A stretch of DNA of 32,348 nucleotides from a virus. Shown one piece after another: positions 2,086 through 31,561 of the stretch. Location of the stretch: positions 1 to 32,348 of IMG/VR virus record IMGVR_UViG_3300046009_004071. The stretch is one strand, 5' to 3'. Position numbers and translations under genes: made by a program. Position 1 is the stretch's first letter, and each line of letters begins with the position of its first letter. The notes beneath the pieces are model-generated. The model was not told the DNA's origin, searched no databases, and saw only the letters and a program-made list of their open reading frames with translations.

Positions 2086-2907
2086 ATGAATAAAATAGCA
2101 ATCAAACCAACAGGCCTTAAAGGTAACGAACAAATTAATAGAATGATTGAACTTATGGGTCAGACACCCATAAAGGAAGGTGTAGACCGTTCGGTCATTG
2201 AGTTGACTAAAATGGGGCCAGATGGCAAAGTGTATGGTATCGTAAGAGAAAACCACGAATATTATATCAAAATCAGCGATAAGACCAATGATTTGGTCAA
2301 AGAGGATTTTAATTATATCGGAGGCCTTAAAAATAAGAAAGAATGGGTATTCCCATCTTACGCTAAAGCTATAAAACAGCTTAATCTTAAATTCATGTCC
2401 TTGTGTGAGGCCACGGGTACAAAATCAAACATAAATGTTTTTGAAGATGATTGTTTGATTTCAGAACATCACCCGTATAAATCAAGTCAAACACTATCCG
2501 CTACTAAAGGTATGGGTGACGCTGAGGAGTACGTGGTTGATAAAAAAGGTGCTGAGTTGTCGTTTGATTCTAAAGAAGGTAAGGCTGAGGATGGGTTCGG
2601 TGATAACGTAGCTGAAAAAGACGTTGTGGATGAGTTTGAAAAGGTAAAACTATCTAAGAACGAATCTAGAATAAACCAAGTTTTAGTAGGTGAGGGTAAG
2701 GATGTGTCTGTTAAGAATGGTAACATCGCGGTTAAACGTCAATTGAGTATATTGGAGACCATAAACAAGATTGATGAGGCGGTTTCCGTTGCCACAGGTG
2801 AGCGTAAGAAAGAACAGATTTCCACAGTAGAGTCAATACTTAAAAAACTATCTAAAGAGGAAATCGTATCTATTCTTGAGAACGTAACAGGAAAAAAAAA
2901 ACTCTAG
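2086..2907 (+). CDS. Unknown phage structural-region protein, N-terminal part of a likely frameshifted gene
   Basis: This frame encodes 273 residues from an ATG preceded by an A-rich leader. Residues 1-105 look like a compact domain (IKPTGLKGNEQINRMIELMG, ELTKMGPDGKVYGIVRENHE, YYIKISDKT, IGGLKNKKEW, PSYAKAIKQLNLKF). After residue 110 it becomes charged linker, ending in a helical segment (LSILETINKIDEAVSVATGE). The frame ends KKKL-stop directly on a run of ten A's at 2892-2901. The -1 frame is open from that run to 4298, so this is probably the N-terminal part of a 737-residue protein. It sits among virion genes; its role is not recognised. Confidence 0.8.
   Translation: MNKIAIKPTGLKGNEQINRMIELMGQTPIKEGVDRSVIELTKMGPDGKVYGIVRENHEYYIKISDKTNDLVKEDFNYIGGLKNKKEWVFPSYAKAIKQLNLKFMSLCEATGTKSNINVFEDDCLISEHHPYKSSQTLSATKGMGDAEEYVVDKKGAELSFDSKEGKAEDGFGDNVAEKDVVDEFEKVKLSKNESRINQVLVGEGKDVSVKNGNIAVKRQLSILETINKIDEAVSVATGERKKEQISTVESILKKLSKEEIVSILENVTGKKKL
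2892..2901 (+). other. Homopolymer slippery site, candidate -1 frameshift
   Basis: Ten consecutive A's are read as GGA AAA AAA AAA CTC TAG in the upstream frame. A -1 slip gives AAA ACT CTA GCC GAA and enters a frame that stays open for 465 further codons. The downstream frame has no ATG, GTG or TTG before 3027, and the ATG there is mid-domain without a visible ribosome site. Ribosomal -1 slippage, transcriptional addition of one A, a real mutation and a homopolymer sequencing error all fit the raw sequence. Confidence 0.65.
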
Positions 2908-4298
2908 CCGAAACTAAAGCTGATGGCATTTCAACAGGTTTATTTTCTGATGAAGAAAATGGTTACGTCTTAGATGAAACCAAATATAAGCTTAAAATAG
3001 ACGCACCCGAAGCATCTAATGGTAGCATGGACAGCACACCTAGTTTTGGTGATGCGCCAGCCCCTGAACCTAGTTTTGGTGATGACAACCAAGACACTCC
3101 TGATGACGCCGAAGGTGATAACCCTTTCGAAAAAAAACCTTTTGACGCTGGTGTTGATGTCGATGAGGAAAGTGACCCTAAGAAATTCATACAGCAACTG
3201 GCTGGTAAAATCGGACAATCGTTAAGGGATTATGAAAAGGGTTTGGGTAATCCTGATTTTGAGTTGGAAAAATTTGTAATCAATTCCGTAATATCAGCAA
3301 CCAATACCGCAGATATGGACGATTCAGACCGAAAGGATATTATAGATAAAATCGAAACCAGCGGTGATGATAACGACAATCAAGAATCGGATTCAGAAGT
3401 TAAAGATGAAACTGATGTTGATGACAGCCAATCTGATTCTGATCAAATGGACGGTGAACAGGTCGATGAGATGTCGTTGGGTGATGACATAGAAGAGATA
3501 TTCTTAGAATGGTCCAAACCTATGGAGTTGACCACTCCGATTTCAGTTTCAGGTGGTCTTAAATACCATTTGGATAATAAGATACCTTTAGGTGAGTCCG
3601 TATTCAGATATGGTTCCGAGAAATATATACAACTATTAAAAGAAGTTAAAAGCCTAAAAAATTCCAATCTCATATCATTAAATGAGAATGACGAATTCAT
3701 CGTCAATTCTGCCATTCCGAAAGTAACTTACCTTAACGGTAAAGAAATACTGTTAAATGCTATATATGAGGAAGAAACTGACGATGAATTGATGTCAGAG
3801 GACGAGATGGTCGAACATCTTCCCACCTTCACACAGATAGCTGCATTAGGCGCCCCGATACTGGCCTTAATCATGCGTAATATACTGAAGGGTAACGAGA
3901 AGTCAGCCAAACAGATTCTAAATAAGGAATTAGAGGGTAAGCCTAATGATAACGTAACTGAATCTGATGTGTTGAATGGTATCAAACAGATTATCGCTGA
4001 GGCTGAGTACAAGGGTAAGACCGTTGAGCTGAATAAACCTAAGCGCGGCGGTTCAAAGAAATTCTATGTTTACGTTAAAGACCCAAGTAGCGGTAATATT
4101 AAGAAAGTATCATTCGGAGCTAAATCGGGTGGCGGTAATCTTGCAGTTAAATTAAAAGACCCGAAAGCTAGAAAGGCATTCTCAGATAGACATAATTGTC
4201 CTGAAAAGAAAGATAAAACAACCGCAGGGTACTGGAGCTGCGCATTGCCGCGTTATGCTAAAAGTCTTGGGCTGAGCGGAGGTGGTCGTTATTGGTGA
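2901..4298 (+). CDS. C-terminal part of the frameshifted structural-region protein
   Basis: The frame is open from just after the stop at 2877-2879, with its first ATG at 3027 (423 residues from there). Reading from the slip at 2901 gives 465 residues; about 42 of these lie before the ATG and read like normal coding sequence (GISTGLFSDEENGYVLDE). Next comes a Pro/Asp-rich linker with a repeated PSFGD unit, an acidic middle, and a predicted helical segment (FTQIAALGAPILALIMRNIL). The C-terminal 90 residues form a basic domain (KKFYVYVKDPSSGNIKKVSF, then FSDRHNCPEKKDKTTAGYW, then SCALPRYAKSLGLSGGGRYW) of a type I recall at the ends of phage virion proteins. If translation starts at 3027 instead, the protein is a separate acidic polypeptide; I think this less likely. 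Confidence 0.75.
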   Translation, partial: TLAETKADGISTGLFSDEENGYVLDETKYKLKIDAPEASNGSMDSTPSFGDAPAPEPSFGDDNQDTPDDAEGDNPFEKKPFDAGVDVDEESDPKKFIQQLAGKIGQSLRDYEKGLGNPDFELEKFVINSVISATNTADMDDSDRKDIIDKIETSGDDNDNQESDSEVKDETDVDDSQSDSDQMDGEQVDEMSLGDDIEEIFLEWSKPMELTTPISVSGGLKYHLDNKIPLGESVFRYGSEKYIQLLKEVKSLKNSNLISLNENDEFIVNSAIPKVTYLNGKEILLNAIYEEETDDELMSEDEMVEHLPTFTQIAALGAPILALIMRNILKGNEKSAKQILNKELEGKPNDNVTESDVLNGIKQIIAEAEYKGKTVELNKPKRGGSKKFYVYVKDPSSGNIKKVSFGAKSGGGNLAVKLKDPKARKAFSDRHNCPEKKDKTTAGYWSCALPRYAKSLGLSGGGRYW

Positions 4299-4992: not shown

Positions 4993-5244
4993 ATGCGTAA
5001 CACAATTTTAGAATCACTTAGAAACCTGTCCGAAGGGGGCGAAAATAAGAATTATATGTTCTTCCAAAATCTTAAAACCATAAGAGACGCAGCCGATGCA
5101 ATACTTGGTATGAACGAGAATATGGTCGATATGATACTCTCAAACGGACACGATTGGGCCTCTGATCATATTGCAACGTCCAAAGATGATGTTGAGGAGG
5201 TTTATAACTTTTTAAAAAACTCAGCGTCCAATGCACAAAAATGA
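4993..5244 (+). CDS. Small helical phage protein (83 aa), unknown
   Basis: This 83-residue protein is predicted mostly helical (YMFFQNLKTIRDAADAILGM, then NMVDMILSNGHDWASDHIAT, then SKDDVEEVYNFLKN). The HDWASDHIATSKDD stretch looks conserved and could be a small binding module, though no named domain is recognised. Its 3' end overlaps the start of the next, multidomain gene by 14 bases in another frame. The two are therefore probably translated together and may act together. The start codon follows an A-rich leader without a Shine-Dalgarno sequence. Confidence 0.7.
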   Translation: MRNTILESLRNLSEGGENKNYMFFQNLKTIRDAADAILGMNENMVDMILSNGHDWASDHIATSKDDVEEVYNFLKNSASNAQK

Positions 5245-8200
5245 TAAACCTTATAGACAAGAAGTATCAACGTCTGGCGTAATAAAAAGAACGTTCGATA
5301 CCAACATAGACCCTTCTGAATTAGTATGGCATAGGGATAAGCGGGACCGAGTGGTAACCCCAACCAACGAGAATGATTGGATGATTCAATTTGATAATGA
5401 ATTACCTAAGAAGTTGATTATAGGTGAATCAGTTATCATACCTAAAGAAACGTACCATAGAGTTATTAAAGGTGATAGCAACTTAGTTGTTGAAATCCAA
5501 GAATTTGATTCGTTGGATGAATTGGTTGTTTGTGAATCAATTGAAGAGGAATTGACTGCTTATCATGGTGGACCACATAAATTTGATAAGTTTGAATTAT
5601 CTAAAATAGGCACAGGCGAAGGCGCACAAGTTTTCGGTTGGGGATTGTATTTTACGGATTTAGAGAGTATTGCGAGGCATTATGCTGATGTATTAGGTGC
5701 GCCAAAAATTTTATACAAAGGGAAAGACATCAATACTATATCTGATTTCAAAGATATTTTCTACTATTTAGATCCAGATAATAGCGAATTTACTTCTTTT
5801 TCAAACGTACAGCAGGTGAAAAAAATATTAGACACTGTACAGCAGATGGCAGAATCTTTTTTAAACTCAAATTATGACAAAAATGATGTTTATGAACAAA
5901 CCTATGCAGAAGAATCTAAAAAGGTTCTAAATTCTATTAAAAAAATAAAAAACAATATTTCTGAACTAACAGTACGAAAGGGTAAAAACCTCTACAAAGT
6001 ATCCCTCCACAAAGGGAAAGAACCCTCCCAATACACTTGGTTGGAGTGGGATAAAGGTGTTGATAGAAAACTGATTAATTTGATAAAAAATAAGTTAACT
6101 GAAGAGCAATATAAGGAAGGTTTTTTTACCATCATAAAGTCATTAGGTATTTCACAGGAACGATATATAAAAGATGGGGAATCGCTTTACAATGCCTTGG
6201 TGATTGCTCTTGGTTCAGATAAGGCAGCATCATTATTCTTGCTTGAAAACGGTATTGATGGAATAAAATACCCTGCTGAAAGCATAGCAAGGGGAGCGAC
6301 AAGTAATACTGCAAGTGGCTTTAACTATGTTGTGTTTGATGAAAACGCTATAAGCATAGAAAAATATACACAATTAGAATCAATTAAAGAGGGCAAAAAG
6401 AAAAAAGGTAAAGGTAATAAAGACGCTTGTTACCATAAGGTCAAAAGCAGATATGACGTATGGCCATCGGCTTATGCTTGTGTTCCAGAAAACACTTCTA
6501 AAGCGCTAACTAGATATGGTTGGAGAGACGTAAATCAACTTAATATTGGTGATGAAATAATGACATATAATATCGAAAAAGATGAGTTGGAGTTTAAACC
6601 GATATTAAATCTGCATAGATATAAAGATGTTAAAACTAATGTTGTTAGAAGCGGAAATAACGGTTTTATATTTGAAGCAACCGACAACCATAAATGGGTC
6701 GTTAAATTACCAATAATTAAAGGGACTAAATCACAAAAATATGAAAGAATTACCGATAAAGCGTTAATTGAAACCAGTGATTTATTAGTTAATAAGAGTA
6801 ATAAACATTTGGTTGTTTCAGCACAATATAATGGTGGTGATAATATTAATTTTGATAAAATATTTAAATATGGTACTAACTGGGTTAAATACATTTTAGA
6901 TATAACTAGCGAACAAAGACAAGCATGGTTATTTAGTGCTATTGTTTATGATGGTAATCAACAAAAAATAGAAAGATTAACCGAAAATACGAATAATATA
7001 GATGAGTTAAATTGGTTATATACTGGACCGCACGGGAAACAATCTTTCGGCTTTAAACAAAAAGACATTGAACACAGAGATGCGTTTTTATTATCAGCTT
7101 TCTTAAACTCTGGTTTAGTAACATGGAAAAAAGTTAGTGACAAAGACATTTATTCATGTCATTATACTAGCAATAAAAGATTTAAAAACACATCTAATTT
7201 TAAATTAGTTAAAGAAAACATTGCAGATGTTTGGTGTCCAGAAACAGAAAATGGTACTTGGGTTATGATGCAAGAAACTGATGGTAACGGTATTATTACA
7301 ATAACTGGAAATTCAGGTGCCTTAGTTCAGTGCAGAAAGGTCGGGGCTAAGAACTGGGGTAATAAGTCTGAGGGTACTGATATCACTGAAGATGCTGATG
7401 CTGTAAATGAAATTTCTGATTTTATGCATTATATTGTAAGTTCATATAAGAATGAAAGAATAGTCATGTCACATGAAGACAAGATTATTTTTAAACCTAC
7501 TCCTATCGATAAACAACGAGTCGGACCTAAACCAAGAGGTTTTTGGTACGGATTCGGTAGTTCTTGGTTAGATTGGGTTCGTAGTGAAATGCCTGATTGG
7601 GAAACGGATTACGTCCATCTGGTTAAGGTTAATGACTCTAGAATATTAAAAATTAGCACGTTTGACGAGTTATTAGCATTCACGGAAGAGTTTGGTGTTA
7701 AAGGTGATTACGCATTCGGTGGGTCGCATCCAAAATCTAATATAAATTGGGCAGAAGTGGCTAAACGTTATTCGGGTATAGAAATAAACCCCTACATCAG
7801 CAAGGGTAGAATGAAATTCATGTGGTATTATCCTTGGGATGTTGCATCTGGATGTGTTTGGGGTGAGGATGGCATAGTTTCTATTGAATTATTGGACGAA
7901 GATGAGATTGAGCGTGACTTTGATGAGGCCAGCGGTAAAAGTGCTAAAGTCGAAGAAAAAACCGATTACTCAAAAGAGAAAAAAAAAGGTCTTCACGGTT
8001 GGTTTGAGAGAAGAGGTGGCGAGGGTTCTCAAGGTTGGGTAGACTGTAATACGTGTAAGAAAGACCCTGAGACTGGTCGGAAAAAATGTAAACCTTGTGG
8101 TAGAAAAGAAGGTGAGAAACGGTCCAAATATCCAGCGTGTCGACCTACACCTTCAGCATGTAAAACCAAAGATAAAGGTGAAAAATGGGGAAAGAAGAGT

Positions 8201-8260
8201 GAAAATACAGTATCTTTGATAAGAAATCTTATACATGATTACGCTAACCCTAAAAATTAA
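5231..8260 (+). CDS. Multidomain polyvalent protein: cupin-like, ADP-ribosyltransferase-like and Cys-rich domains, with an intein
   Basis: The precursor is 1009 residues and the spliced protein would be 731. Residues 20-90 look cupin-like (LVWHRDKRDR at 31-40, YHRVIKGDSNLVVEI at 75-89). Residues 110-376 resemble the ADP-ribosyltransferase domain of polyvalent proteins: AYHGGPHKFDKF (H112), GTGEGAQVFGWGLYFTD (Y140) and a closing NYVVFDENAISI. Residues 398-416 plus 695-709 form a split extein domain (ACYHKVKSRYDVWPSAYA joined to SGALVQCRKVGAKNWG). Residues 768-884 hold GFWYGFGSSWLDW and WYYPWDVASGCVW, a further unnamed domain. Residues 920-978 are Cys-rich (GWVDC, CKPCGRK, YPACRPT, SAC), resembling DUF5872 as I remember it. 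It may be a virion protein injected to modify host targets; that is inference. Confidence 0.8.
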   Translation: MHKNDKPYRQEVSTSGVIKRTFDTNIDPSELVWHRDKRDRVVTPTNENDWMIQFDNELPKKLIIGESVIIPKETYHRVIKGDSNLVVEIQEFDSLDELVVCESIEEELTAYHGGPHKFDKFELSKIGTGEGAQVFGWGLYFTDLESIARHYADVLGAPKILYKGKDINTISDFKDIFYYLDPDNSEFTSFSNVQQVKKILDTVQQMAESFLNSNYDKNDVYEQTYAEESKKVLNSIKKIKNNISELTVRKGKNLYKVSLHKGKEPSQYTWLEWDKGVDRKLINLIKNKLTEEQYKEGFFTIIKSLGISQERYIKDGESLYNALVIALGSDKAASLFLLENGIDGIKYPAESIARGATSNTASGFNYVVFDENAISIEKYTQLESIKEGKKKKGKGNKDACYHKVKSRYDVWPSAYACVPENTSKALTRYGWRDVNQLNIGDEIMTYNIEKDELEFKPILNLHRYKDVKTNVVRSGNNGFIFEATDNHKWVVKLPIIKGTKSQKYERITDKALIETSDLLVNKSNKHLVVSAQYNGGDNINFDKIFKYGTNWVKYILDITSEQRQAWLFSAIVYDGNQQKIERLTENTNNIDELNWLYTGPHGKQSFGFKQKDIEHRDAFLLSAFLNSGLVTWKKVSDKDIYSCHYTSNKRFKNTSNFKLVKENIADVWCPETENGTWVMMQETDGNGIITITGNSGALVQCRKVGAKNWGNKSEGTDITEDADAVNEISDFMHYIVSSYKNERIVMSHEDKIIFKPTPIDKQRVGPKPRGFWYGFGSSWLDWVRSEMPDWETDYVHLVKVNDSRILKISTFDELLAFTEEFGVKGDYAFGGSHPKSNINWAEVAKRYSGIEINPYISKGRMKFMWYYPWDVASGCVWGEDGIVSIELLDEDEIERDFDEASGKSAKVEEKTDYSKEKKKGLHGWFERRGGEGSQGWVDCNTCKKDPETGRKKCKPCGRKEGEKRSKYPACRPTPSACKTKDKGEKWGKKSENTVSLIRNLIHDYANPKN
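6479..7312 (+). mobile_element. Intein in the polyvalent protein, with degenerate endonuclease domain
   Basis: Residues 417-694 (278 aa) form an intein. Cys417 begins block A (CVPENTSKALTRYGWRDV, then LNIGDEIMTYN). TDNH at 484-487 is the block B TxxH. Block F/G is ADVWCPETENGTWVM followed by ITGN with Asn694 last and Ser695 as the +1 nucleophile. The penultimate residue is Gly instead of the usual His. Removing it joins WPSAYA to SGALVQC, a continuous conserved-looking domain. The central part has weak LAGLIDADG-like helices (LFSAIVYDGN at 567-576, FLLSAFLNSG at 619-628); the second lacks the acidic residue, so endonuclease activity is doubtful. Confidence 0.85.
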
Positions 8261-10816: not shown

Positions 10817-13800
10817 ATGTTGACCGCAAATGAGATTTATGAAGAATACGCTAAATGTCTAATCGACCCAGCGTATGTAATTGAGACGTATTTTAAAACG
10901 TTCGATAAAACTAATAATGGTTATGTACCATTTAAACTGTTTGATAAACAGAAAGAGATTGTACGCGCTCTTAAAACCCACCGTCATAATATAATTGCCA
11001 AACCTAGGCAAGCGGGAGTGTCTACCACAGTCGCAGCCACTACTTCCGTATTGCTAGGTTTTGCCGATGAGAACAACCCAGAGGCTATTTTGATTGTTGC
11101 CAACAAACAAGATATGGCATTCGAGTTCCTTTCTAAAATTAAGGACTTCTTGAACCAGATACCTAGATGGGCTTGGGGTCCAGAATATTACGGTTCGCCA
11201 GAGAAAGAGCGAAAGACTATATTCTCAGCTGAATCTAAGAAAGAGATAAAACTACCTAACGGTTGCCGAGTTAAGGCCGTAGCGACATCACCAGACGCTC
11301 TTAGAGGTTATACCCCGACCTTGTTGATTATGGACGAAGCTGCGTTCATTGAGGATGGTAAAGAACTGTTCGGGGCAGCTCAAACGGCTTTGGGTACGGG
11401 TGGAAAAAGTGTACTCATATCGTGCGTTACTGATGATACTTTTATCTACACCGATAATGGATTGCGACAAGTCGGTGATTTTATTAATGTTAATGAACCT
11501 GATGACCCGATGCACGGATATGTCGTTAATAAGTATGGGGTATTGGGTAATGGAGGTGTTAGATATTCTGATTTATTCGTCAATAACGGTTTACAGGATA
11601 CCGTAAAAATTACAACCAAGTACAATTTCTTAGAAGGTACCAAACCACATAAACTTTGGTCTTACAATAAATCAACAGACAAATACGATTGGCATACATT
11701 GGATAGTCTATCTATAGATGATTTTGTGTTAATAAAATATGGCGGTATGGTTTTCGGTAATTTCGACACAATTGATTTGGATTATTCGTTCTCAAAAAAA
11801 GAAAAACAGCCTAGAATAATTTATGATAAGGTAACAGAAGATTTAGCTTATTTAATAGGTTTATATATTGCTGAGGGTTCAACATATAAGAAATATAATG
11901 ATGAAGGTAAACATATTGGTACGAATATTACGATAACATGTGGCGATGATATCAGTTCAGCAATCGATAAATGCGGTTTTAACTATTCTTGTCACGATGG
12001 TTTACACTATACAATTTCTTCGAAGTACTTAGGTGCGATATTAGAACATCTTGAAGTGGATTTATCTCTAAAATCAAATGATAAGTTTTTTAGTAATAGA
12101 CTGTTATCGCTATCCAAAAAAAATACTATGGCCTTAATTAGGGGTTATATGGATGGTGACGGTTATTCCGATAGCGTTAGAGGTAGGATTGGTGTTAACA
12201 CTTCATCCAAAAAACTATGTTTACAATTGAAACATATGTTAATGAATTTCGGTATTCTTACTGATTACAGTGAGGGGGTATGTGGCCCAACCGATAGAGT
12301 TAAAGTCTCAAGTAATTATTATAGGATTTCCGCAACGTCAGAAAATGCTAAAAAATATTATGATTTAATCGGGTTTTCTTTTGAAAGGAAACAAATCAAA
12401 AAATGCGCTTTAAAAGATAAATCAAAAAATCACCACTATAATCTCGTCCCTAACGGTAAAAAAATCTTAAGGCGCATTATCGATGATAACGGTTTAACAT
12501 ATTATTTCAGAGGTAGCGGATTGAAAGTTAATCGTCTATTTATTGAGAAAGGTAAGAGTGCTGATATATCTAAACCTATATTCGTTAGTTTTATCGACCA
12601 AATAAAAAAATTAGGTGTAGACATAGAGCCTTATGATATTGACCGTATCATAATAGAAAATAGTATTTGGTGTAGAATTAAGAATATTGAGTTAGGTAAG
12701 GCTAAAACATATGATTTCTCGTTACCTGAAAATCCAGATGACTTTTGGTGCCACTCTGTTTTATATAACGGTATGTTAGGACATCAAACCCCAAATGGAC
12801 TAGATGAGTTGTACTATGAAACATACGATTTGGCCTTAAAAAAACTTAATGATTTCAATATTATTGAAATGCGTTGGTACCAAGACGATAGATATAACGT
12901 TGGGCTTAAATGGTATCGTTACACCGATAAAGAAAAGAAAAATAAAGAAGTTATCGATGAAGAGGACTTCACCTTCGATTCTTACCGTAAGAAAATTGCG
13001 GACGGCTATAAGCCAACATCACCTTGGTATGAGGCAATGTGTCGGGGGATGAATAATGACGCCAGACTAATTGCTCAAGAATTGGACGTGTCTTTCTTAG
13101 GTTCTGGCGGTAACGTTGTGTCCGATGAATACATTGAACACCATAGGAATAGAAACGTACAAGATCCAAAATATGTCAGCGGTAGCGAAAGCGAGCTTTG
13201 GGTATGGGAGGAGCCTATCGAGGGACATGAGTATATATTGGCCAGTGACGTGAGTAGAGGTGATGGTGCCGACTATTCAACGTTCACCATAATAGATTTC
13301 ACTACTATGACTCAGGTCGCTGAATATATGGGCCGAACCCCACCAGATAAATTATCAAATCTTTTATTTGAGTATGGAACGTTGTACAACGCTTTAGTAG
13401 TAGTCGATATCACTGGTGGTATGGGTGTCGCTACCGTATTAAAACTTCAAGACATGAAGTACCCTAACTTATATTACGGTGAAAAAGGTGGTCAAGGGTT
13501 AAAAAAACGTAAAGACATGGATAAGTATAACTCAGACAATGAGATTGCTGGGTTCCAAGTAGGTAGTGATAGAACTAGGTTGGTCTCTACGTTTGAGAAA
13601 ATGATTAGGATTAATAAAGATGAGGGAGATGACCACGGTATAAAAATACGTTCAACAAGACTTTTATCCGAATTGAATTCCTTCGTGTATATCAATGGTA
13701 GGGCTGACCATACAAAGGGCAAGCACGATGACTTAATCATGGCTATGGCTATGGCGTTATTCATATTAGAGAACTCATTTAAACAGCTTAAGGCGATAGA

Positions 13801-13981
13801 ACAGAAAACTAGAGCAATGTTGGCCAGCTGGGTTTCATTTTCTACTTCAGGTGAACTTAAGGTCGCTGACGTTAATAATGTTAATAAAAATAAAAACAAA
13901 CCTAATTTCAGTCCGACTGTAGCTAAAAATATGCAAGACCCAAAGGGTGAATATATGTGGCTTTTCGGAGGTTTCAGATAA
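10817..13981 (+). CDS. Terminase large subunit (gp17-like DNA-packaging motor) containing an intein
   Basis: The precursor is 1054 residues; without the intein the protein is 599, close to T4 gp17. The ATPase domain shows a Walker A variant at 62-70 (KPRQAGVST) and Walker B at 169-177 (LLIMDEAAF, D173 and E174). The coupling motif SVLIS-TPNG is split by the intein. The nuclease domain shows acidic metal-binding candidates in ASDVSRGDGADYS (D811), VVVDITGG (D864) and KHDDLIMAMAMAL (D971/D972). The motor docks on the portal, translocates DNA into the prohead using ATP and cuts concatemers into headfuls. The late-type promoter lies just upstream. The family assignment is secure from motif order. 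Confidence 0.97.
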   Translation: MLTANEIYEEYAKCLIDPAYVIETYFKTFDKTNNGYVPFKLFDKQKEIVRALKTHRHNIIAKPRQAGVSTTVAATTSVLLGFADENNPEAILIVANKQDMAFEFLSKIKDFLNQIPRWAWGPEYYGSPEKERKTIFSAESKKEIKLPNGCRVKAVATSPDALRGYTPTLLIMDEAAFIEDGKELFGAAQTALGTGGKSVLISCVTDDTFIYTDNGLRQVGDFINVNEPDDPMHGYVVNKYGVLGNGGVRYSDLFVNNGLQDTVKITTKYNFLEGTKPHKLWSYNKSTDKYDWHTLDSLSIDDFVLIKYGGMVFGNFDTIDLDYSFSKKEKQPRIIYDKVTEDLAYLIGLYIAEGSTYKKYNDEGKHIGTNITITCGDDISSAIDKCGFNYSCHDGLHYTISSKYLGAILEHLEVDLSLKSNDKFFSNRLLSLSKKNTMALIRGYMDGDGYSDSVRGRIGVNTSSKKLCLQLKHMLMNFGILTDYSEGVCGPTDRVKVSSNYYRISATSENAKKYYDLIGFSFERKQIKKCALKDKSKNHHYNLVPNGKKILRRIIDDNGLTYYFRGSGLKVNRLFIEKGKSADISKPIFVSFIDQIKKLGVDIEPYDIDRIIIENSIWCRIKNIELGKAKTYDFSLPENPDDFWCHSVLYNGMLGHQTPNGLDELYYETYDLALKKLNDFNIIEMRWYQDDRYNVGLKWYRYTDKEKKNKEVIDEEDFTFDSYRKKIADGYKPTSPWYEAMCRGMNNDARLIAQELDVSFLGSGGNVVSDEYIEHHRNRNVQDPKYVSGSESELWVWEEPIEGHEYILASDVSRGDGADYSTFTIIDFTTMTQVAEYMGRTPPDKLSNLLFEYGTLYNALVVVDITGGMGVATVLKLQDMKYPNLYYGEKGGQGLKKRKDMDKYNSDNEIAGFQVGSDRTRLVSTFEKMIRINKDEGDDHGIKIRSTRLLSELNSFVYINGRADHTKGKHDDLIMAMAMALFILENSFKQLKAIEQKTRAMLASWVSFSTSGELKVADVNNVNKNKNKPNFSPTVAKNMQDPKGEYMWLFGGFR
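11423..12787 (+). mobile_element. TerL intein with LAGLIDADG homing endonuclease
   Basis: Residues 203-657 (455 aa) form an intein inserted in the terminase coupling motif, between SVLIS and TPNG. It begins at Cys203 (CVTDDTFIYTDNGLRQVGDF) and has the block B TxxH at 275-278 (TKPH). It has two good LAGLIDADG helices, LIGLYIAEG at 346-354 and LIRGYMDGDG at 440-449, each with an acidic residue, so an active endonuclease is plausible. The C-terminal block is DDFWCHSVLYNGMLGHQ, ending His-Gln, with Thr658 as the +1 residue. Terminal Gln instead of Asn is uncommon but known in working inteins. Confidence 0.93.
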
Positions 13982-18051: not shown

Positions 18052-18747
18052 ATGTCGAATGTATCGATTTTAAGAGCTGGAGAAACTGGGTTCGGGTATC
18101 TGATTGAACGTGACGCGGGTTATATTTCGCCTGACGACAAAAGAAACTATTCATTTATCAATGAAATGAAGAAGTTTGAGCAAGGCTCGAACGTTATAGC
18201 TGAACCGTATTATATCTACGCGGTGCTACAAAAATACGGAGTTAAGAATAGAAACGGAAGAGTATACCCTGAAGATATCCTTAAATCACAGTCTAAGGCT
18301 TATCAAGTCTTAATTGACGAGAGACATGCTATTGGTGAACTTGACCACCCTGCCGAATCCATTATCGCAGGTGATAGAATTTCACATAACATCGTTGAGA
18401 TGTGGTGGGAAGGAAATGTCCTTATGGGTAAGATTGAGATTCTTATGTCACCAGGTTTCATTAACCTCGGTATAGTATCCACCACAGGAGACCAAGTAGC
18501 AAACTTACTTAGACACAGAATCAAAATAGGCGTCTCATCAAGAGGCGTCGGTTCCATTGAGGATGTTCACGGAATACAAGTGGTACAGAATGACTTTGAA
18601 CTTATTTGTTGGGATATTGTGACAAATCCAAGTACACCTGGTTCTTGGATATTCAACGATTTAAATAAATCTTCAGCTATGAAGATGGAAGTGGTAGAAT
18701 CTAAACATAAGATAATCAGCGGATTAGATAAATTTTTATTAGGTTAA
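18052..18747 (+). CDS. Prohead maturation protease (gp21-like)
   Basis: This 231-residue protein is close in size to T4 gp21 (212). The herpesvirus/T4-type serine protease fold is supported by KNRNGRVYPEDIL at 65-77, the catalytic His in ERHAIGELDHPAESI (H99), a strand region SHNIVEMWWEGNVLMGKIEI, and the nucleophile in IGVSSRGVGS (S162 or S163). The C-terminal DFELICWDIVTNPSTPGSWI block is typical of the family. In T4 the enzyme digests the scaffold and trims capsid and other proteins after (L/I)xE sites before DNA packaging. Its own late-type promoter and the scaffold and capsid genes just downstream fit that role. Confidence 0.93.
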   Translation: MSNVSILRAGETGFGYLIERDAGYISPDDKRNYSFINEMKKFEQGSNVIAEPYYIYAVLQKYGVKNRNGRVYPEDILKSQSKAYQVLIDERHAIGELDHPAESIIAGDRISHNIVEMWWEGNVLMGKIEILMSPGFINLGIVSTTGDQVANLLRHRIKIGVSSRGVGSIEDVHGIQVVQNDFELICWDIVTNPSTPGSWIFNDLNKSSAMKMEVVESKHKIISGLDKFLLG

Positions 18748-22089: not shown

Positions 22090-23796
22090 ATGAAAAAGAA
22101 AACTGTATTAACAGATGATGATATTTCAAATATCATCAAGATATATCAAGAAGCCAGTATCGGTATCGAAGTTTTGGCTGGTAAGTTTAATGTGGGTAAA
22201 CTGAAGATTAAGGATATATTGAATCAACATAATATACCTATAAAGAAAAAAGGTGCTCAAGTTATTAACGGCGATAGCTCGGAGATTGAAGCTTCACGCG
22301 TATTCAGATATACCGTTACAGATGATAGTAAAAAACTGATTGCGGTATGTAAATCGACTAATAGGGAGTTTGACGATATTAATAATGTGTCGGGCGCGTT
22401 AACCAGTCACATCATGTCAACATACGGTGACGTACCCATCCCAAGCAACACATATCAAAGAAAGAAATACGAAAAAGAGTATGGTAAAAAGTGGTTTGAA
22501 GAATATTTTTATATTAAGGAAGTCGATAAACCAATCACTAGGAAGTGTAATCTATGTAATTGGGAAACGGTTGACGTGAACAATGCGACTGGTTGTTTTG
22601 AACAACATTTGTCTGATACCCATAACATCAGTTTAATGGAATATTTAGAAGATTTCCCAGAGGACATAAAATACCATTCTAAATACGATAAATTGAAGCA
22701 TAGGTCAAATCCTAACAATCACGTCACATGTATGGTATGTGGTAAGAAGGTGGGTTACATCACCGCCAAACATCTCTCAACCCATACTATGACCTTGAGT
22801 GACTATCGGATAAAATATCCTAATAGTAGGGTATTATCCAATGAGTATAAGGATAATCTTAAAGCTAGATATGAAGAAACATTAAGGCATTTTGAACCTG
22901 TGTATTCCACCAAACCACAGGAAGAAATTTACAATATTATAAAATCTTTTGGCGTTAATGTTAAGAAAAACGATAAGTCTCTATTGGGTGGGGTTGAAAT
23001 AGATATTTTACTACCAGATAAGAAAATCGGTTTGGAGTATAATGGATTGTATTACCATAGAGAGGGTATGGGTAAGGATAAAAACTATCACCTAAATAAA
23101 ACCAAATTGATGAACGATTCTGGTTATAGTTTAATCCATGTGTTTGAGGATGAATGGATAAGTAATAAAGAACTGGTAATCAATAAAATAACCCATTTAT
23201 TGGGGCTGAGTACTTCTATTTCTATAGGCGGAAGACAGTGTAGGGTAGATAGGGTTGATTCAAGCGTCAAATCTGATTTTCTATATATGAACCATATACA
23301 AGGTAATGATAAGTCTGAGATATCTTATGGGGCGTATTATGGCGATAAGCTGATCGCTGTGATGTGTTTCACCAATAAGAGGTCAATGAATGGTACCTTA
23401 ACTAATGTGAATGAGTACGAATTATCCAGATATGCGACTGATATTAATTATAGAGTAGTAGGTATTGCTGGAAAGCTGATCAAACGCTTTATTCGTGATT
23501 ATAACCCAAAGAAGATTATCAGTTTCGGTGATAGAAGATGGGTATTAAATGGTGATTATAATATGTATACCAAATTGGGGTTTGAGTTGACTAAAACATA
23601 TGCGCCAGAATATAGGTATTACAACCCGAAGATATCCAGAAACAAACGTTTGCATAAATTCGGTTTTGGTAAGAGTTCCTTAAAAAAGAAACACCCAGAA
23701 TTAGATTTCTCTAAAACTGAGCGTGAGTTGATGTTAGATTTGGGCTATGATAGGATTTGGGACTGCGGTTTGTTCAAGTACGAGTTAAACTGTTAG
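22090..23796 (+). CDS. Free-standing homing endonuclease, Vsr/EDxHD-like nuclease with zinc fingers
   Basis: This 568-residue protein has several modules. Residues 8-50 resemble a helix-turn-helix (IIKIYQEASIGIEVLAGKFN). C153/C156 with H173/H178, and C214/C217 with H228/H232, form two zinc-finger-like units, the second followed by LSDYRIKYP. Residues 298-357 form the nuclease core: GGVEIDILLPDKKIGLEYNG (E303, D305, E316), YYHREG (H323), then YHLNKTKLM and LIHVFEDEW. This matches phage homing nucleases related to the Vsr mismatch endonuclease. The C-terminal 200 residues (YGDKLIAVMCFTNKRS, YELSRYATD, IISFGDRRW, RIWDCGLFKYEL) form a GNAT-like accessory domain often found with these nucleases. 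It probably cuts a related phage genome near the capsid gene and spreads by repair. Its last 4 bases overlap the convergent next gene. Confidence 0.85.
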   Translation: MKKKTVLTDDDISNIIKIYQEASIGIEVLAGKFNVGKLKIKDILNQHNIPIKKKGAQVINGDSSEIEASRVFRYTVTDDSKKLIAVCKSTNREFDDINNVSGALTSHIMSTYGDVPIPSNTYQRKKYEKEYGKKWFEEYFYIKEVDKPITRKCNLCNWETVDVNNATGCFEQHLSDTHNISLMEYLEDFPEDIKYHSKYDKLKHRSNPNNHVTCMVCGKKVGYITAKHLSTHTMTLSDYRIKYPNSRVLSNEYKDNLKARYEETLRHFEPVYSTKPQEEIYNIIKSFGVNVKKNDKSLLGGVEIDILLPDKKIGLEYNGLYYHREGMGKDKNYHLNKTKLMNDSGYSLIHVFEDEWISNKELVINKITHLLGLSTSISIGGRQCRVDRVDSSVKSDFLYMNHIQGNDKSEISYGAYYGDKLIAVMCFTNKRSMNGTLTNVNEYELSRYATDINYRVVGIAGKLIKRFIRDYNPKKIISFGDRRWVLNGDYNMYTKLGFELTKTYAPEYRYYNPKISRNKRLHKFGFGKSSLKKKHPELDFSKTERELMLDLGYDRIWDCGLFKYELNC

Positions 23797-30751: not shown

Positions 30752-31561
30752 TTAGTCACTGTCAATTTCAATGTTCTTAATCAGTTTATATAAGGCCTTA
30801 TATCTTCTCATCGCCAATCTGACTTCTTTTACAGTCAGACCTGAGTGGGTTACTATAACTTCCATAATCGCCAATTTATCATGTTTATTCCCTCCGCCTA
30901 GGATGGGTGTGACCAGTTCTTTGTTTTCTAAGATATCTATGAGCGTGGTACCCAATTTCATCTCATTCTTAGACATATATATACCTAATGTCGCAGAACT
31001 CTCCATTTCCTTTTTAATGGCTGATACCATGCTCTTAATCAGATTCTCTACATCTAATGAATGGTCTTCGATTTCGTATTGATATTCATCTTTAGTTTCC
31101 AGTTCGGAACTCACATCATCGAAATCATCGTATTTCTTAATACTTTTGGCGTCATCCTGTAGTTTACCTATAAGATATCTCTTAATGATTGTCCCATAAT
31201 AGGAATAAGCCTTAAACTTTCTATCTGAATCAAATTTATGGGCTTTCAATATTAAGTTGTTAAGCGCATCCATGTGCAGCTCTTCGAACGATATGCCCTC
31301 ACGATATAGTTTATATCTTTTTATGATATACTCGACCATTTTATTCAACGGTTCTTTCAATCTACGATTGTATATCAGCTCTCGATGTAACGCGTGTTCG
31401 CTGGTTCCGCTCCAGATTAAATTAGCTTTCTCTGGTTCAGTAAGATATCTCGGATCATTAATGTCAGGTATCATGATACCAGAATTCAAAAATTCTGCTA
31501 CCGCTCTCTCTTCTTCTTCACCGAAATAGTCATTGACCTTTTTCTTTCGTTCTTTGACCAC
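30752..31561 (-). CDS. gp55-like late-transcription sigma factor
   Basis: This 269-residue protein resembles T4 gp55 (185 aa), the small sigma factor that directs host RNA polymerase to late promoters. Region 2 of sigma factors is visible at about 70-133: LNKMVEYIIKRYKLYREGIS, FEELHMDALNNLILKAHKFD, then FKAYSYYGTIIKRYLIGKL, with the aromatic cluster that melts DNA. The rest (140-269) is charged and helical (IEDHSLDVENLIKSMVSAIK; LTVKEVRLAMRRYKALYKLI) and could bind polymerase or, through the last part, DNA. It is the obvious reader of the recurring late-type element. It has no clear promoter inside the 12-base gap upstream, so it is transcribed with the glycosyltransferase gene. Confidence 0.8.
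   Translation of the reverse strand: MVKERKKKVNDYFGEEEERAVAEFLNSGIMIPDINDPRYLTEPEKANLIWSGTSEHALHRELIYNRRLKEPLNKMVEYIIKRYKLYREGISFEELHMDALNNLILKAHKFDSDRKFKAYSYYGTIIKRYLIGKLQDDAKSIKKYDDFDDVSSELETKDEYQYEIEDHSLDVENLIKSMVSAIKKEMESSATLGIYMSKNEMKLGTTLIDILENKELVTPILGGGNKHDKLAIMEVIVTHSGLTVKEVRLAMRRYKALYKLIKNIEIDSD

Follow-up and report, generated by a model that had tools for sequence, protein, structure and literature searches.

In retroviruses and totiviruses, a frame change near the close of the capsid-associated ORF leads from Gag to a minor Gag-Pol fusion (Atkins et al. 2016, PMC5009743). The phage locus described here, in which a first frame (P1) is followed by a second one (P2), shares this layout as well as cleavage by a protease in the particle, the latter being only proposed for P1-P2. 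Unlike Gag and Gag-Pol, P1-P2 belongs to a DNA phage, its proteins are unrelated, the protease is of the T4 type and the slippage is probably transcriptional. A short and an extended form of a structural protein are also made in the cases of lambda gpG-GT, gene 10 of T7/T3 and Listeria phage PSA (PMC5009743). These are tail chaperones or extensions of coat and tail-shaft proteins, which sets them apart from P1-P2. Moreover, LxE cleavage tied to the junction is not known to us in any of them.

Thermus dnaX and certain IS elements, in which slippage occurs at A9 runs, have in common with P1-P2 a run of at least nine A's of conserved length, placed near a stop and giving, or in P1-P2 predicted to give, two products from one gene (PMC1088944), although P1-P2 is a gene of a phage structural region. 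With regard to processing, the nearest relatives in kind are the T4 prohead core and internal proteins (gp22, gp67, IPI-III and Alt), cut by gp21. This protease acts C-terminal to the glutamate in L/I-X-E, and in the internal proteins it removes short N-terminal targeting sequences (PMC9026906). As in T4, the P1-P2 gene lies in a head cluster with a gp21-type protease, and its N-terminal part ends in L/I-x-E (PMC9026906); in contrast, no sequence similarity to the T4 proteins was found, and the T4 system works without recoding and without fused modular cargo. The P1/P2 frame change is not annotated in the collections searched, and no description of it was found in the open-access literature. 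New here is the conservation of [LIVM]xE, the gp21-type cut consensus, both behind the junction and at the end of the N-terminal domain.

Organisation of the Locus

The window, that is, the whole stretch of DNA analysed, corresponds to a virus record in IMG/VR and is 32,348 bases long; its relevant features are collected in Table 1. ORF1 closes with GGA AAA AAA AAA CTC TAG, read as ...G-K-K-K-L-stop, and the first ATG of the -1 frame is found at 3027. The ending of ORF1 on the A10 run and the extent of the open -1 frame, both pointed out in an earlier sequence-only reading, were confirmed when re-read from the sequence. A frame change at the run would join 272 residues of the first frame to 465 of the second, giving the 737-residue fusion proposed in that reading, a proposal that is borne out by the constant order of P1 and P2 and by the -1 offset of most relatives (see below).

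Table 1. Coordinates of the P1-P2 locus and associated features in the window.
Feature	Position	Strand	Evidence or remarks
ORF1 / P1, short product, 273 aa	2086..2907	+	Folded N-terminal domain (about aa 10-110), then mostly disordered linker
I-K-E (aa 29-31), candidate cut site of the prohead protease, following a short N-terminal helix	2170..2178	+	[LIVM]xE in 54/57 aligned sequences
Candidate [LIVM]xE site ending the N-terminal domain (residue 108)	2401..2409	+	57/58; next residue A or S in 52
I-S-E (aa 125-127), candidate linker site	2458..2466	+	[LIVM]xE in 53/58
-1 frame ORF / P2, used from 2901 (465 aa)	2880..4298	+	Reached only after the frame change
A10 slippage run, 0-frame GGA AAA AAA AAA	2892..2901	+	A9-A12 in 100/101 -1 loci, 88 exactly A10
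L-A-E, first LxE past the junction	2904..2912	+	[LIVM]xE at most 16 aa behind the run in 96/101 loci; 21% expected (shuffling)
ORF1 stop codon, one sense codon past the A10 run	2905..2907	+	At most 1 sense codon between run and stop in 78% (60 non-redundant shifted loci) vs 49% expected (codon resampling)
L-D-E directly before TKYKLK, proposed mature P2 start	2970..2978	+	Glutamate invariant in 15-sequence alignment
P2 core domain (PFDAGV..DPKKFIQQ..EKFVINSV..), three predicted helices	3120..3359	+	61/61 non-redundant loci
Basic C-terminal module (phrog_7595), exchangeable	3996..4295	+	PHROG E 2.1e-13; 27/61 loci; also in other cultured phages
Stand-alone 83-aa ORF, domain embedded in P2 of relatives	4993..5244	+	64% identity over 59 aa to P2 of locus L004; in P2 of 23/61 loci
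T4 gp21-type prohead core protease, proposed processing enzyme	18052..18747	+	PF03420 Peptidase_S77 E 1.9e-23; phrog_207

Conservation of the Frame Change

Loci obtained from scans of viral contigs and genome contigs were examined with profiles for a P1 domain with the P2 core domain behind it. This gave 108 distinct loci carrying both, 61 of which are non-redundant as judged by shared 10-mers around the junction, with identities to P1 and P2 of the window that range from about 24-31% up to 89%. The carriers are large, mostly uncultured T4-type phages. P2 lies in the -1 frame relative to P1 in 101 of these loci, in the +1 frame in none and in a single frame with P1 in 7. An unbroken A run lies within the overlap in all but one of the shifted loci (A9 in eight, A10 in 88, A11 in three and A12 in one), and no run at these 100 junctions is shorter than nine. 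The comparison with related phages that had been suggested from the single sequence has revealed the same arrangement and a conserved run, present in roughly one hundred relatives.

Homopolymers are error-prone, and two loci (L146 and L147) read A11 and sit in one frame, as would be expected if the shift were an assembly or sequencing error and the true gene a single frame with 9 or 11 A's. However, the run has equal length in independent metagenomes and in about 60 non-redundant lineages, with the stop conserved behind it; closely related loci from separate metagenomes (e.g., L010-L013 and L032) contain an identical A10. Taking into account the prevalence of the -1 frame, the conserved A9-A12 and the retention of A10-A11 by single-frame loci, the frame change is not a sequencing error. 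The number of independent lineages rules out such an error for the family, and its probability is negligible.

Among the seven single-frame loci, L018 and L019 are devoid of the run, L025, L027 and L099 have A10, and L146 and L147 have A11. In L027, L099, L146 and L147 the usual ORF1 stop is still present directly behind the run, in another frame. Since these seven relatives encode P1 and P2 in one continuous frame and read straight through, P1-P2 constitutes one chain, as had been suggested for the window. In a quick tree of the two domains, with many weak forks, the single-frame loci are scattered over several places between lineages with the shift, which is also present in the deep clade formed by L028, L030, L031 and L196. 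This scatter, together with the natural A10/A11 differences among relatives, could reflect phase variation, in which changes of the A-run length in the DNA would turn the fusion on or off within the population. Nevertheless, random switching predicts about one third of single-frame loci, far from the 7 of 108 observed, and this explanation appears improbable.

It could also be argued that P2 is a separate product started internally, for instance at ATG 3027, the A run being a mere A-rich leader. This is what locus L194 seems to do, where the A run is absent and the stop codon of ORF1 overlaps with an ATG (TAATG, in 3530-3720); since they overlap in this way, P1 and P2 are here two genes. P2 of L194 has a start of its own, and therefore the fusion is not indispensable. 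L196, a different contig of the MAG to which L194 belongs, has an A9 frame change. For the remaining loci, internal initiation is hard to reconcile with the strict -1 frame of all shifted loci, with the existence of single-frame relatives and with the conserved coding sequence located 5' of the first ATG. The coding residues that had been noticed ahead of ATG 3027 contain the LxE-TKYKLK motif, conserved there across relatives whose identity to the window is about 30-89%. Moreover, the P2 frame ahead of the core domain is free of ATG in 26 loci and of ATG, GTG and TTG in 13, and none of these three codons precedes YKLK in 42 of the 88 loci with a clear motif of this type. Loci without upstream start codons thus rule out internal initiation as a general route, and a separately started P2 is very improbable, still more so than phase variation.

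The distribution of long runs agrees with selection at the junction. In the fetched loci, A/T runs of at least nine are found 89 times at the junction, 19 times elsewhere in P1-P2, 37 times between genes (0.14 Mb) and 12 times in other coding sequence (about 1.5 Mb, an over-counted total, since the fetched loci overlap and are partly redundant). Among the 60 non-redundant shifted loci, the second P2 codon encodes Leu in 39 cases, and 38 of these have CTA or TTA, which represent 63% of Leu codons. Judged by comparison, the frame change is a conserved and selected feature, and as a feature of the sequence the recoding event is certain. Other A9-A10 runs of the window, at 2068, 18865 and 20142, lie just 5' of the start codons of P1, a putative scaffold gene and the capsid gene, and are perhaps A-rich leaders.

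Slippage by the Polymerase or by the Ribosome

Conservation of run length among homologs is used by Baranov et al. (PMC1088944) as a criterion for purposeful transcriptional slippage, and in many bacterial genomes selection against runs becomes visible at a length of nine. The junction has both properties, an A/T run of at least nine and a length conserved among homologs. Transcriptional slippage is favoured because the run is at least nine long, unbroken and found in any codon phase (A10 starts at codon position 3 in 80 loci, and all three phases occur), with no stimulator at a fixed spacing, and because single-frame loci keep the run.

The main competing mechanism is a programmed -1 ribosomal frameshift on A_AAA_AAA inside the run, the RNA polymerase being faithful. 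Every conserved run has this heptamer in the -1 register, the direction of the shift is always -1, and in the window the slippery heptamer occurs in the 0 frame at 2892-2898 and 2895-2901. Furthermore, RNA pairing downstream of the run exceeds the codon-resampled expectation: the 90 nt behind the run give a mean z of -1.75 +/- 0.22, compared with about -0.3 to -0.5 further downstream, and the excess begins about 30-47 nt behind the run. This excess structure in the relatives could hint at ribosomal recoding. The RNA of the window itself has no excess structure downstream of the run (z -0.50).

Against a ribosomal mechanism, seven A's would suffice, yet the minimum is nine, and the phase of the run varies. 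Upstream SD-like sequences are not enriched (13 of 101 loci, 9.25 expected). The strongest hairpin lies at a variable distance, from 0 to 97 nt behind the run, often just past the KYKLK codons to which it seems tied. With no SD enrichment and no hairpin fixed in position relative to the run, a canonical frameshift stimulator is not clearly recognisable, in spite of the excess structure in the relatives. In about 60 loci, over the stretch matching positions 2902-3010 of the window, the hairpins often follow the position of the KYKLK codons rather than that of the run. Among ribosomal slip tetramers of E. coli, A_AA.G is the strongest and A_AA.A is weak (PMC4066793); most junction runs nevertheless end on AAA.

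The previous statement that ribosome and polymerase could both slip is still fair; the comparative data lean towards transcription, although not decisively. From these patterns, slippage in vivo would probably be due to the polymerase, ribosomal frameshifting being possible but the less likely of the two.

Head Genes and Protease-Type Sites

The P1-P2 gene is located upstream of T4-type genes for terminase (phrog_2), portal (PF07230), prohead core protease (PF03420 Peptidase_S77) and major capsid protein (PF07068), and a gp21-type protease is therefore encoded in the same genome. The major capsid protein of the window contains I-T-E at about residue 61, which we take to be the place where T4-type capsid proteins are cut. 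Its closest named relatives are those of Flavobacterium phage immuto and Microcystis phage Mel-JY01, and large phages of a similar kind from fresh water have been attributed to hosts among the Bacteroidota (PMC9723584, PMC12619734).

Several other elements were observed around these genes. The terminase large subunit gene (10817-13981) is split by a LAGLIDADG-type insertion that is probably an intein. A large ORF at 5231-8260 shows a match to an ART-PolyVal-like domain that stays under the cut-off (PF18760 E 3.2e-4), an insertion that looks intein-like by eye and a run of nine A's near its 3' end at 7979. A homing-endonuclease-like gene (phrog_3339, 22090-23796) is found downstream of the capsid gene, an ORF on the minus strand (30752-31561) gives a weak match (phrog_234, E 0.007) to a family of late sigma factors, and two adjoining ORFs (1305-1754 and 1800-2069) have similar N-terminal halves.

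AlphaFold2 modelled P1 with confidence only for about residues 11-110, which places the candidate site at residue 108 at the end of the domain. Sites of the L/I-x-E type stand at conserved places both in P1 and at the junction, where the sequence usually reads L-x-E-T-K-Y-K-L-K. LxE is a short motif, and its occurrences at aa 39, 55 and 73 of P1 sit inside the folded domain, where cleavage is unlikely.

The initial comparison with the frameshifted tail proteins of other phages was not sustained, since the gene adjoins T4-type head genes, which as neighbours give no support to a tail protein, and carries protease-type LxE sites. Because of these neighbours and sites, a head-core polyprotein fits better.

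The P2 Core and Its Exchangeable Modules

P2 ranges from about 220 to 816 residues, the shorter ones being cut by contig ends, and its modularity (Table 1) would be expected of exchangeable cargo. Neither P1 nor P2 matched Pfam, and P1 had no match in PHROG. The family of the C-terminal module, phrog_7595, has no assigned function, and this module is the only part of the window P2 that is matched in cultured phages. The P1 part and the P2 core domain were not found in the annotated phages searched, nor did the profile search detect them in the examined stretches of Flavobacterium phage immuto and LR756508. Foldseek gave no match against the PDB with E below 0.001, VIA-align gave only middling Z values (5.6 or less) for part of P2, and the structure search showed that two uncharacterised viral proteins resemble P1.

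Proposed Mechanism and Significance

The best-supported reading is that of a frame-skipped head polyprotein. Thus, one gene would give two head-core proteins: most readings would stop just behind A10, producing P1, and a minor fraction, gaining one base in register at the run, would give P1-P2. The most likely source of the extra base would be RNA polymerase slippage, leading to mRNAs with about 11 A's, and ribosomal -1 slippage on A_AAA_AAA would yield the same protein. P1 would act as the targeting and core part, and P2 as cargo carried into the prohead in a ratio set by slippage. Finally, the T4 gp21-type protease would cut after [LIV]xE, also at the sites that immediately follow the junction, freeing P2 inside the head.

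Comparison among the relatives supports the conservation of the -1 change and of the run, a single chain, conserved LxE motifs and, in the window, a gp21-type protease gene. Cleavage and location in the head may be considered fairly probable, and for the role of P2 as cargo the balance is about even. We estimate a probability of roughly 0.6 for the explanation as a whole, a frame-skipped P1/P1-P2 prohead-core polyprotein from which the protease releases P2. More tentative, and somewhat doubtful at present, is the broader proposal of a Gag/Gag-Pol-like system of tailed phages, in which A10 slippage would set the cargo dose, P1 would carry the cargo into the prohead, and LxE cleavage would free it, probably to be delivered with the DNA.

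At the P1-P2 junction, slippage by the polymerase and slippage by the ribosome can be told apart cleanly by experiment. In addition, a run of at least nine A's followed by LxE provides a rule to find and correctly annotate a gene that is now split in these genomes. If the proposed explanation is true, this would be a very widely conserved phage recoding event, in a virion-region gene of poorly annotated large T4-type phages, and phages too would dose and release capsid cargo by means of frame-skipping plus a head protease.
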